From contig NZ_CP146101.1 in assembly GCF_037023745.1 (NCBI RefSeq), positions 6,960,001 through 7,024,000 on the forward strand: a DNA stretch of 64,000 nt, read 5' to 3'. The stretch comes from Streptomyces sp. SCSIO 30461. Lineage in GTDB: Bacteria > Actinomycetota > Actinomycetes > Streptomycetales > Streptomycetaceae. Below the pieces are notes generated by a model. That model saw nothing but the letters and a program-made list of their open reading frames with translations. It was not told the DNA's origin and did not search any database. Made by a program: the position numbers and the translations under genes. How positions within the stretch are numbered: position 1 is the stretch's first letter; each line of letters opens with the position of its first letter. Of the stretch, positions 11,145 through 58,648 are shown in pieces.

Positions 11145-11218
11145 CGTGCGTATTGTGCCCGCCGCCGCTCGCGTCCCCGCTCCGGGCTCCGTTCCCCGGC
11201 GGGACCGCCCGGCGCTGG

Positions 11219-11391
11219 GGCGTGTTGCGAAAGTCCCTCCTGACCCGCGACGCCTGGCACGCACGCTCGCTGCGTTGTCGGAGTCATCCAAGTACGTCCA
11301 GTACGAGGATGATCCTCCGCCTTGCGATCGCACGCACCAGACTCCGCAGGCCCCGCCCTGCGGGCGGACGGAGCTACTTTCGCAACACGCC
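11219..11391. mobile_element. MITE-like element, copy 1
   Basis: A 173-bp element with 15-bp perfect terminal inverted repeats (GGCGTGTTGCGAAAG and its complement). It is flanked by CTGG on the left (11215-11218) and CTAG on the right (11392-11395), a probable CTAG target duplication with one base changed. The interior is a long imperfect palindrome. It differs from the copy at 34601-34773 at three positions only. It codes for no transposase, although one minus-strand frame is open throughout. Mobilisation in trans by an insertion-sequence transposase is an inference; no such gene lies in the window. Confidence 0.85.
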
Positions 11392-11494
11392 CTAGTGCCG
11401 TACATCCACTCCCCCTTGGTGCATCGCGCATGGTGCGTGGTGGCCAGGTCGCGTCCGGCGTGCCAGCCGGAAGGGCCAACCGGAACGCATCCTG

Positions 11495-34533: not shown

Positions 34534-34600
34534 GGCCACTCGGCCGGCAGCGGATGCTCACGCACCATATCCGGGCATGATCATCCGATAACCGGTCTAG

Positions 34601-34773
34601 GGCGTGTTGCGAAAGTCCCTCCTGACCCGCGACGCCTGGCACGCACGCTCGCTGCGTTGTCGGAGTCATCCACGTACGTCCAGTACGAGGATGATCCTCC
34701 GCCTTGCGATCGCACGCACCAGACGCCGCAGGCCCCGCCCTGCGGGCGGACGGAGCTGCTTTCGCAACACGCC
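34601..34773. mobile_element. MITE-like element, copy 2
   Basis: The same 173-bp element as at 11219-11391, with 15-bp terminal inverted repeats and perfect CTAG on both sides (34597-34600 and 34774-34777). Only three substitutions separate the copies, so at least one moved recently. It lies between bcp and the tRNA gene at 34931; the remaining 34534-34600 and 34778-34930 show no gene. Confidence 0.88.
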
Positions 34774-34930
34774 CTAGTTCCTCCGTACGAGGACGCGAAC
34801 ACTGCGACTGCCGTGCCCCGACTGCCACGCGATCACAAGCACCTGGTGCCGCGGGGGCCACACCGACGATCCCTAAGCCAGCCGCTTGCGCGTAGGGTTG
34901 ACTCCGCCCAGTAGAGTGAGGGCGTTGCCT

Positions 34931-57058: not shown

Positions 57059-58648
57059 TCAGTCAGGCGAACCGGCGACGAAGGTGTGCGCCATCTTGTC
57101 GTGCCAGCACTGCCGCCACGGCCGGTCGAACACACACCAGAGCACATTGACGACGCCGATCAGCAGCACGCCCAGCACTCCGTGCACCAGCCAACGCACC
57201 AGCGCGGCCATGAAGTCGGGCGACTCGTGGGTCTCGATGTGCCGCACATCCAGGCCCATCAGCTTCTTCCCGAGCGTGCGGCCCCACTTGGCCGTAGGCA
57301 GCGCCTCGTACAGCGTGCCGAGCAGCAGCAGCGCGACCAGTGCGAGACCGAACATCAGGCTCGTCGTCGCATCGACGAGATAGACGGTGACGGTCTCACC
57401 CGAGAGCCTCGCCTCCTCGATCTTCTCGTCGATGTGTGTCAGGGCTCTGGAGACGAGGGGGTAGGCCACCGCCCCTACGACCGCACCCAGCACAGCGGTG
57501 TCGATCAGTCGGGCGACGACCCGCTTGCCCAGCGCGGCCGGCCTGGCCGAAGCCTGGGCCTGCGCGGCTTGCAGGAACGGGTCGCTGACCGGCGGCTTCC
57601 AGGGCGTGACCGGCTGCCGTTCGGCCTCCTGCGGGTCCTGGACCTGGGCCAGTTGGTGCACCTGCTGCGCCCAGGACGCGGCACCGCCGCCTTCTCCGGC
57701 ACTGACCGGTGGTACCTGCTGCTGAGGCGGGACCTGGGCCGGAGCCTGAGTCTGCGAACGGTCCGGAGCCGGTTGCCGGGCTTGGGGGCGCTCCGGTGCG
57801 GCCGCCGGGCCCTGTGCCGCGGACTGGGCCGTCTGCGCCGCGGAGACCGGCTGCTGGGGCCTGGGCTCGGCTCCCTGCCGGGTGGGCTGCCCCGGCTGCT
57901 GCGGCGTCATCGTACGGATCGTCATCGTGCCCTCTGCAGGCGCGGTGTCCCCCTTCGGCTGCTGTGCCCGCAGCTTGGTGGTCCCGTCGGGGAAGGGCAC
58001 GGAACCTTCACCGCCCCCGGCATCACCACCCACACTCCGCATGCCCGGTAGAGCGCCCCCGGACGGATCCACCGCGGAGTCGGGCGCGGCGCCCTCGGCC
58101 GCAGGTTCGACCGGACGGTCGAACCGAGCACGGGGCGGCACAGCCGCACCGGCCGCTGCCGCCGCCCGTGCCTCCCGGGCGGCGGCGGGACTCCACGCCT
58201 CCGCGGGCGATGGCGCGGAGGGTCCCTCCGGCGAGGCGGCGGGGGTACCGACCGCACCGGCCGCGTCCCGGCGCGGGTCCTGGGCCGCGGTCCCCCACGA
58301 GACCCTGCGGTCCCGGTCGCCGCCGAAGCCCGACTGCTGGGAGGCGTCGGCCTGCCAGACGGACACGGGCTCACCTCCGGCCGGGTCCTCGTCCAGGAAG
58401 ACAGGCCCGGTCTCTTCCAACGAAGCCGGGCCCGGAGCCTGCGGCGACGCCGTACCGGCCGCCGACGGCGCGGTCGGCTCACCGGACGGTGGCGTGGGCA
58501 GCGGCGCGCCGTTGCCGGGCGCCGGGCGGCTCGTGCCGGGCACCCACGCCACACCGCTCCAGTACCGGACATAGCCGGGGATGGACGGATCTGGATAGAA
58601 GCCGGCTGCGGGGCTGCCGTCGCCGGTCGCCGGGGTTGGGGCGCTCAT
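57059..58648 (-). CDS. RDD family protein with DUF2510 domain and long disordered linker
   Basis: A 529-residue protein. The DUF2510 motif AAGFYPDPSIPGYVRYWSG is at about 13-32. A 330-residue Pro/Gln/Ala-rich, presumably disordered region with poly-Q like segments comes next. The C-terminal RDD domain (about 370-525) has GKRVVARLIDTAVLG and WGRTLGKKLMGLDVRHI. DUF2510 is a short Trp-rich domain often fused to membrane parts in actinobacteria. Tandem RDD genes suggest a paired complex. ATG at 58648 preferred; a GTG sits one codon before it. Confidence 0.88.
   Translation of the reverse strand: MSAPTPATGDGSPAAGFYPDPSIPGYVRYWSGVAWVPGTSRPAPGNGAPLPTPPSGEPTAPSAAGTASPQAPGPASLEETGPVFLDEDPAGGEPVSVWQADASQQSGFGGDRDRRVSWGTAAQDPRRDAAGAVGTPAASPEGPSAPSPAEAWSPAAAREARAAAAAGAAVPPRARFDRPVEPAAEGAAPDSAVDPSGGALPGMRSVGGDAGGGEGSVPFPDGTTKLRAQQPKGDTAPAEGTMTIRTMTPQQPGQPTRQGAEPRPQQPVSAAQTAQSAAQGPAAAPERPQARQPAPDRSQTQAPAQVPPQQQVPPVSAGEGGGAASWAQQVHQLAQVQDPQEAERQPVTPWKPPVSDPFLQAAQAQASARPAALGKRVVARLIDTAVLGAVVGAVAYPLVSRALTHIDEKIEEARLSGETVTVYLVDATTSLMFGLALVALLLLGTLYEALPTAKWGRTLGKKLMGLDVRHIETHESPDFMAALVRWLVHGVLGVLLIGVVNVLWCVFDRPWRQCWHDKMAHTFVAGSPD

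Follow-up and report, generated by a model that had tools for sequence, protein, structure and literature searches.

A 64,000-nucleotide stretch of the single-contig, 8,047,498-base genome of Streptomyces sp. SCSIO 30461 (contig NZ_CP146101.1, positions 6960001 to 7024000; here called the window) carries two near-identical copies of a miniature inverted-repeat transposable element (MITE), copy 1 at 11218 to 11392 and copy 2 at 34600 to 34774 on the plus strand (element coordinates are window positions). From the sequences compared, we consider it probable that transposases of the IS5 family (NF033580) move this MITE family in trans, that its two ends have been exchanged as pairs, and that its core has been kept in a folded form, likely as an RNA of the minus strand. 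The element is 175 bp long, is bounded by perfect 16-bp terminal inverted repeats (GGGCGTGTTGCGAAAG), and is too short to hold a transposase gene.

The ends of the MITE were also those of complete insertion sequences (IS) in other genomes. We searched 295 genomes for the MITE end with a next letter other than that of the MITE, and matches were obtained in 37 of them (own genome included). Three complete elements, L221 (946 bp), L206 (1,494 bp), and L230 (2,835 bp), carried identical GGGCGTGTTGCGAAAG on both sides and had TA/YTAR flanks; thus, the MITE shares its ends with autonomous elements of other genomes. The C-terminal parts of the transposases of L221 and L206 scored 130 and 139 bits with the IS5_3 model NF033580 (transpos_IS5_3; cut-off, 110 bits), and that of L230 scored 109.6 bits, just under the cut-off. 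Judged by eye, the transposase reading in elements of this type seems to be split over two frames; L235, an intact single-frame relative with a slightly different end, scored 247 bits and has the DUF4096 and DDE_Tnp_1 domains. We fetched 80 IS5 relatives, nearly all with named organisms, and measured 73 (the other 7 were further copies in records already measured). End pairs were obtained for 36, mainly of the types GGNCGTGT and GGGCCTGT, with YTA beside 34 and TAR beside 35 of the 36, figures that are biased since the search gave bonus points for TA flanks and GG starts. Among 18 matches in the own genome, the closest transposase was a relative in truncated form, whose end (GGCCGTGTTTTAGG) differed from that of the MITE, and three copies of a 1,098-bp IS5_3 element, at about genome positions 3819530, 3925026, and 6432735, had ends GGGAGCGTATTGCGTC and CTAG-type flanks. 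Because these own IS5 relatives carry different ends, we infer a helper transposase that was perhaps lost from the strain studied. A preliminary description of the window had called the mobilizing enzyme unknown; the same-end IS5-family elements now provide a candidate, found elsewhere and not in this genome. It had also seen no transposase in the window, and none of the 18 own-genome relatives of the partner transposase, nor any of the IS1182 copies described below, lies between 6960001 and 7024000.

In L230 (G128:C2, about 12201711 to 12204545), a transposase gene of the IS110 type (189.8 bits; cut-off, 140) interrupts the IS5-type element. A GNAT acetyltransferase domain was encoded as a passenger in L206/L240 (53 bits) and L235 (27.6 bits), and L231 and L233 perhaps also have a passenger gene, a likeness judged by eye. 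Many named IS5 loci had 1.3 to 1.7 kb between the ends, and because of this length, passengers may be common in such elements.

Of 295 genomes of the genus, counting the own one, 259 held relatives of the MITE, and many of these relatives matched in the middle alone. In 18 of 20 middle-only loci that we read, an inverted repeat surrounded the core, mostly with CTAG-type flanks, and the ends included GGCCCTGTCCGGTGGATC, GGGCCTGTCTGATGATT, GGGGCTAGTCGTCCC, GGGCGTGTCCGATGGGTC, and GGGGGTTTCGTTTGGATC. A class-wide search at an E value of 0.001 gave matches, many of them weak, in 52 of 296 genomes (18 of 114 genera), and relatives were present in some other families of the class. Another 18 loci were read, 13 of which came from other genera, and 10 of these 13 matched a covariance model over its full length and had left and right ends agreeing at at least 12 of 16 bases. 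Relatives also occurred in 39 plasmid records, all from Streptomyces, and phage records gave no family match at an E value of 1e-5. None of four plasmid loci at short end matches had a paired end at IS distance, and three of them had no listed genes. Within an element, the left and right ends agreed at at least 12 of 16 bases in 64 of 66 elements (mean, 15.0), whereas the left end of one element agreed with the right end of another at 10.4 of 16 bases over all 4,290 comparisons; for 15 chosen elements with different end types, the values were 15.2 within and 9.3 between elements. The comparison of cores with ends over pairs took 69 elements, including three core-only matches (L352, L357, and L358; <150 nt) that were left out of the 66-element end comparison and of the strand comparison below, and it used a measure of end likeness that allows slipping and so favors the ends. 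In 132 pairs, which are not mutually independent, the cores were more than 75% and the ends less than 60% alike, the extremes being 93% versus 56% and 88% versus 39%. Some elements with cores 88 to 93% identical thus had different, internally matched ends, and in four unlike-end pairs the similarity broke about 20 bases from each end. Because drift alone would hardly stop at that point, the ends appear to have been exchanged as a pair. Two further loci resembled ends without a core: a 40-bp palindromic piece, CTAGGGCCTGTCCG...CGGACAGGCCCTAG, on a plasmid (L370; NZ_CP109328.1, 1501 to 1540) looks like an ends-only mini-element, and L380/L381 in genome G165 form a pair of ends, separated by 57 bp, that lacks the core motif used in the search.

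The core folded in a strand-specific manner. In an alignment of 30 elements of the genus (A1; L222, the second L174 copy, L220, L229, and L194 were left out), the minus-strand consensus formed 70 pairs at -127.5 kcal/mol and the plus-strand consensus 64 pairs at -99.7 kcal/mol, with 98.0% of the minus-strand cells able to pair. Both sides had changed in 29 of the 70 minus-strand pairs, compared with 15.2 in shuffled and 4 to 8 in slid controls, and the covariation was 0.248 versus 0.102 in shuffles. Six minus-strand pairs were G-U in most sequences and conserved within the genus. Over all minus-strand pairs there were 208 G-U and 26 A-C cells; at pairs with a Watson-Crick majority, G-U cells numbered 48 and A-C cells 26 (29 versus 14 in the core and 18 versus 12 in the end helix). 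The minus strand was the more stable one, by over 5 kcal/mol, in all 30 genus elements and in 35 of a further 36, a set that included 10 elements from other genera, and the unpaired letters CGCAAGGCGGAGG and CGACAACGC were kept in most of those 10. The compensatory changes, the minus-strand bias, the conserved G-U pairs, and the kept unpaired letters suggest that the core is probably under selection as one folded strand, and RNA is more likely than single-stranded DNA. Pairing maintained at the level of double-stranded DNA was also considered (28 G-U and 35 A-C cells on the plus strand) and rejected, since the conserved plus-strand mismatches are the minus-strand G-U pairs.

The preliminary description had foreseen many copies in the genome, and 34 full-length copies were present in the 8.05-Mb chromosome. 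BLAST gave 124 candidates, of which 40 matches were scored; the 34 were 96 to 100% identical, and the remaining 6 were partial or 84 to 87% identical. A scan of the own genome for the 15-bp end gave 62 perfect matches, 16 places with a single mismatch, and 18 with two, and revealed no paired full-length copy beyond the 34. The description had proposed looking for CTAG duplications at other copies; CTA preceded and TAG followed the element in 23 of 34. TA stood on both sides in 27 of the 34 copies; in 4 copies both TAs were kept and the outermost base differed (TTA/TAG twice, CTA/TAA, and CTA/TAC), in 7 the TA was altered on at least one side, and the listed flanks showed no change in the base adjacent to the element. 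A duplication of the 4-bp CTAG was rejected as the simplest reading, since a TA duplication requires fewer mutations; because the flank variants fit it better, we read the target as YTAR, mostly CTAG, with duplication of the 2-bp TA. The upstream gene region of the copy at 34600, the one copy whose place was compared between genomes, was matched in 294 of 295 genomes (own included). In 19 other genomes, read as best matches at 84 to 89% identity, the proposed check for empty sites found the MITE absent from the orthologous place in all 19; the downstream side aligned in three of them and a short piece of it in a fourth. The dispersed copies, with CTAG-type flanks at most of them, and the 19 empty places agree with the earlier assignment to a nonautonomous MITE. 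The claim that it had moved recently calls for caution: the copies differ from their consensus by a mean of 2.5 substitutions per 175 bases and at 12 places look older than the IS beside them, and no same-end IS was found in the own genome. The conservation of the core and the unlike ends of relatives lay beyond what that description could detect. Shorter forms with the same ends were found at 57597, 936106, and 7628121 of the own genome. In two of them (57597 to 57660 and 7628121 to 7628186), the core is gone and the junction is nearly identical, which points either to transposition of a 64- to 66-bp element or to two independent occurrences of one deletion at a short direct repeat.

The MITE copies also appear to be targets for other elements. 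Two IS of the own genome, IS-A (12 full copies, 0 to 2 substitutions from consensus) and IS-B (7 full copies, 0 to 1), scored 312.7 and 341.3 bits with the IS1182 family model (cut-off, 270), and all 12 and all 7 copies had CTAG on both sides. Nine IS-A and three IS-B copies directly adjoined a MITE, so that 12 of 19 lay exactly on a CTAG that borders a MITE; IS-A adjoined either MITE end in both IS orientations, and one further IS-B was joined to an IS-A that adjoins a MITE. At 1434748 to 1438495 of the own genome, IS-B, IS-A, and a MITE form a chain joined via single CTAG sites. CTAG is rare (68 in a 400-kb sample, about 1,370 per genome), and the edges of the 34 copies supply 55 of 68 possible CTAGs, with a few more on short forms. 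Assuming 58 to 68 edge CTAGs, the chance probabilities were 6e-11 to 2e-10 for 9 of 12, 0.002 to 0.003 for 3 of 7, and approximately 1e-12 for 12 of 19; the presence of IS1182 at MITE edges thus exceeds what the rarity of CTAG leads one to expect. In other genomes, 1 of 29 IS1182 loci adjoined a family member by the covariance model (L270), and 11 of the 12 closer IS1182 relatives listed had CTAG at both ends. The habit is therefore clear in the own genome and rare elsewhere among the loci read. The 12 IS-abutting MITEs had 10 private substitutions in 2,100 bases, and the 19 IS1182 copies had 15 substitutions of any kind in 34,231 bases; with fewer substitutions per base, the IS1182 copies look younger than the adjoining MITEs. 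Against that order stand variants shared between MITE copies (three copies at position 58 and two copies each at 48, 87, and 133), every one of these copies abutting IS-A; the MITEs could have inserted beside IS-A or undergone gene conversion.

Gene context was assessed with a home-made codon-score gene finder, not an annotation. By this measure, 28 of 34 copies were intergenic; without the 12 IS-abutting copies (a hand count), 16 of 22 were, a share like that of CTAG sites (38 of 55, after 13 of 68 sites near stretch ends were dropped) and unlike that of random positions (54 of 300). Of 15 copies with both neighbors known, none lay between divergent genes, compared with 13 of 35 CTAG sites (P = 0.005), and 5 lay between convergent genes, compared with 2 of 35 (P = 0.02).

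Taken as a mechanism, an IS5-family (NF033580) transposase would act in trans on matching MITE ends and insert the element into YTAR, mostly CTAG, with TA duplication, both ends would be swapped together between elements while the core of about 110 bp is retained, and the core would be preserved in single-stranded, folded form, most likely as RNA copied off the minus strand when transcription of a neighbor runs through it. Because ends-only elements exist, the core may serve something other than cutting and pasting. A bolder version, in which a mobile actinomycete RNA hairpin rides successive IS5-type transposases, swaps both ends with each driver, has a core function of its own, and offers its copies as CTAG landing pads to IS1182, can be put forward only tentatively. 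Several observations weigh against the proposed mechanism. Over 2,211 element pairs, scored with the measure that favors the ends, ends were 62% and cores 61% alike, so that, overall, the ends resemble each other no less than the cores do. The six G-U positions were less constant outside the genus, and one of them read G-G in 6 of 10 other-genus elements, where the alignment is uncertain. No Rfam 15 family matched at the gathering score (best scores at chance level, 17.5 and 21.7 bits versus 70). The end scan and the transposase relatives disclosed no IS with the MITE's end in the own genome, and the exact end GGCCCTGTCCGGTGGATC gave 14 matches in 4 of 246 genomes, with no complete IS among them. 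Finally, by a hand count, orientation to tandem neighbor genes was unbiased (4 sense and 6 antisense).

Three other explanations were weighed. These could be ordinary IS5-derived MITEs with a functionless core, alike through descent or recent interspecies transfer, whose ends drifted together with the transposases. The near identity of copies within one genome, as in bursts, the graded series formed by many end types (GGNCNTGT), and the 39 plasmid records with relatives, which make transfer possible, would all suit this explanation. It is nevertheless unlikely, as it fits poorly with the 29 of 70 pairs that show compensatory changes (shuffles, 15.2), with a strand difference above 5 kcal/mol in all 30 genus elements and in 35 of the 36 others, with unpaired letters kept in other families, and with unlike ends on 88 to 93% identical cores that part about 20 bases from each end. 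Slightly less credence goes to the core being a hairpin of minus-strand single-stranded DNA, not RNA, that aids transposition or target choice. DNA parameters likewise favor the minus strand (-71.9 versus -62.4 kcal/mol), G-T pairs are tolerated in DNA, and a scan of the element stretch for sigma-70 promoters and terminators found none; against this, ends-only elements with CTAG-type flanks occur in the same genome (57597 and 7628121), although these could be in-place deletions, and a hand count of copies gave no apparent strand bias between the chromosome halves. The idea that the element is a regulatory repeat that became fixed in the host long ago, as the 16 of 22 intergenic copies and the 0 of 15 between divergent genes might suggest, is hardly credible, since the orthologous place is empty in 19 of 19 genomes, which contradicts it, the flanks are YTAR, the ends are common to IS5 elements, and the intergenic share is that of CTAG sites generally (38 of 55).

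The two elements in the window were found where the preliminary description had put them, at 11219 to 11391 and 34601 to 34773; under the TA reading, one base is added to these 173 bp on each side. As it had reported, the copies differ at 3 positions within the 173 bp, and the flanks are CTAG except for the left flank of copy 1, where a further difference gives CTGG in place of the CTAG of copy 2. Its 15-bp perfect terminal repeat proved to be a perfect repeat of 16 bp, and in copy 2 it extends to 19 to 20 bp with CTAG counted in. The long imperfect palindrome that it saw in the interior was borne out by folding, with -100.9 kcal/mol (z, -7.95) for the plus strand and -129.8 kcal/mol (z, -12.1) for the minus strand. 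In copy 2, the left terminal inverted repeat, the end also present on the complete IS5-type elements, lies at 34600 to 34615 (plus strand) and the right one at 34759 to 34774 (minus strand), with presumed TA target duplications at 34598 to 34599, inside the CTAG at 34597 to 34600, and at 34775 to 34776, inside the CTAG at 34774 to 34777. The core hairpin, which folds better on the minus strand, occupies 34624 to 34734, and a small side hairpin, CCGCCCTGCGGGCGG in plus-strand letters, follows at 34735 to 34749 (minus strand) and is lost in relatives with some other ends. Copy 1 has its left repeat at 11218 to 11233 (plus strand), its right repeat at 11377 to 11392 (minus strand), the presumed duplications at 11216 to 11217 (TG, one base changed) and 11393 to 11394 (TA), and the core hairpin, offset as in copy 2, at 11242 to 11352 (minus strand).

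The components are of known kinds, namely, a MITE, an IS5 helper, and an IS that uses repeats as targets. Elements of the IS5 family (NF033580) share the end repeat and the TA/YTAR flanks with the present MITE (L221, L206, and L230), whereas the MITE lacks a transposase, and none of these IS contained its core in the stretches read. QMITE1 of Coxiella, a bacterial MITE moved in trans by IS transposases, is likewise small and noncoding, with terminal inverted repeats and tens of copies, and within a single species its conserved core is described as lying between variable ends; the present core, in contrast, spans a genus and other families, its ends are matched in each element, and it folds strand-specifically with compensatory changes (PMC5896051). 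TIMEs, the Tn3-derived miniature elements, are also nonautonomous and modular in content, but they combine constant ends with variable cargo, whereas in the present family it is the middle that recurs, between ends that vary (PMC4133298). IS settle preferentially at palindromic repeats in the repetitive extragenic palindromic (REP) system as they do here, with IS3, IS110, IS4, IS256, and IS5 entering REP repeats (PMC1525189) and IS1182 landing on CTAG sites at MITE edges in our case. GTAG- and CGTC-tagged repeats are similarly dispersed palindromes that partly lack an enzyme of their own; they are palindromes of 20 to 40 bp tagged at one end, without matched terminal repeats and target duplication, in contrast to the 175 bp, matched ends, and TA flanks found here, which place the element outside REPs as so defined, and the words Streptomyces and Actinobacteria are absent from the accessible text (PMC3733652). 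Literature searches on Streptomyces MITEs, on IS1182 with CTAG, and on the core letters, in which coverage of subscription journals was thin, did not find the MITE family named. No publication searched described the family, its ends that differ between elements yet match within them, its pairing specific to one strand, or the landing of IS1182 on MITE edges.

MITEs are commonly viewed as worn-out insertion sequences in which the ends are constrained and the middle is free. Some of the element pairs described here reverse this picture, with the middle kept and the ends changed, and because the two ends change in a matched way, how an element switches its driver becomes a testable matter. The IS1182 pile-up indicates that a MITE can provide other elements with target sites that are otherwise rare. 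Should the core prove to be a functional RNA, an undescribed structured RNA spread by borrowed transposases would be present in most of the sampled Streptomyces genomes.
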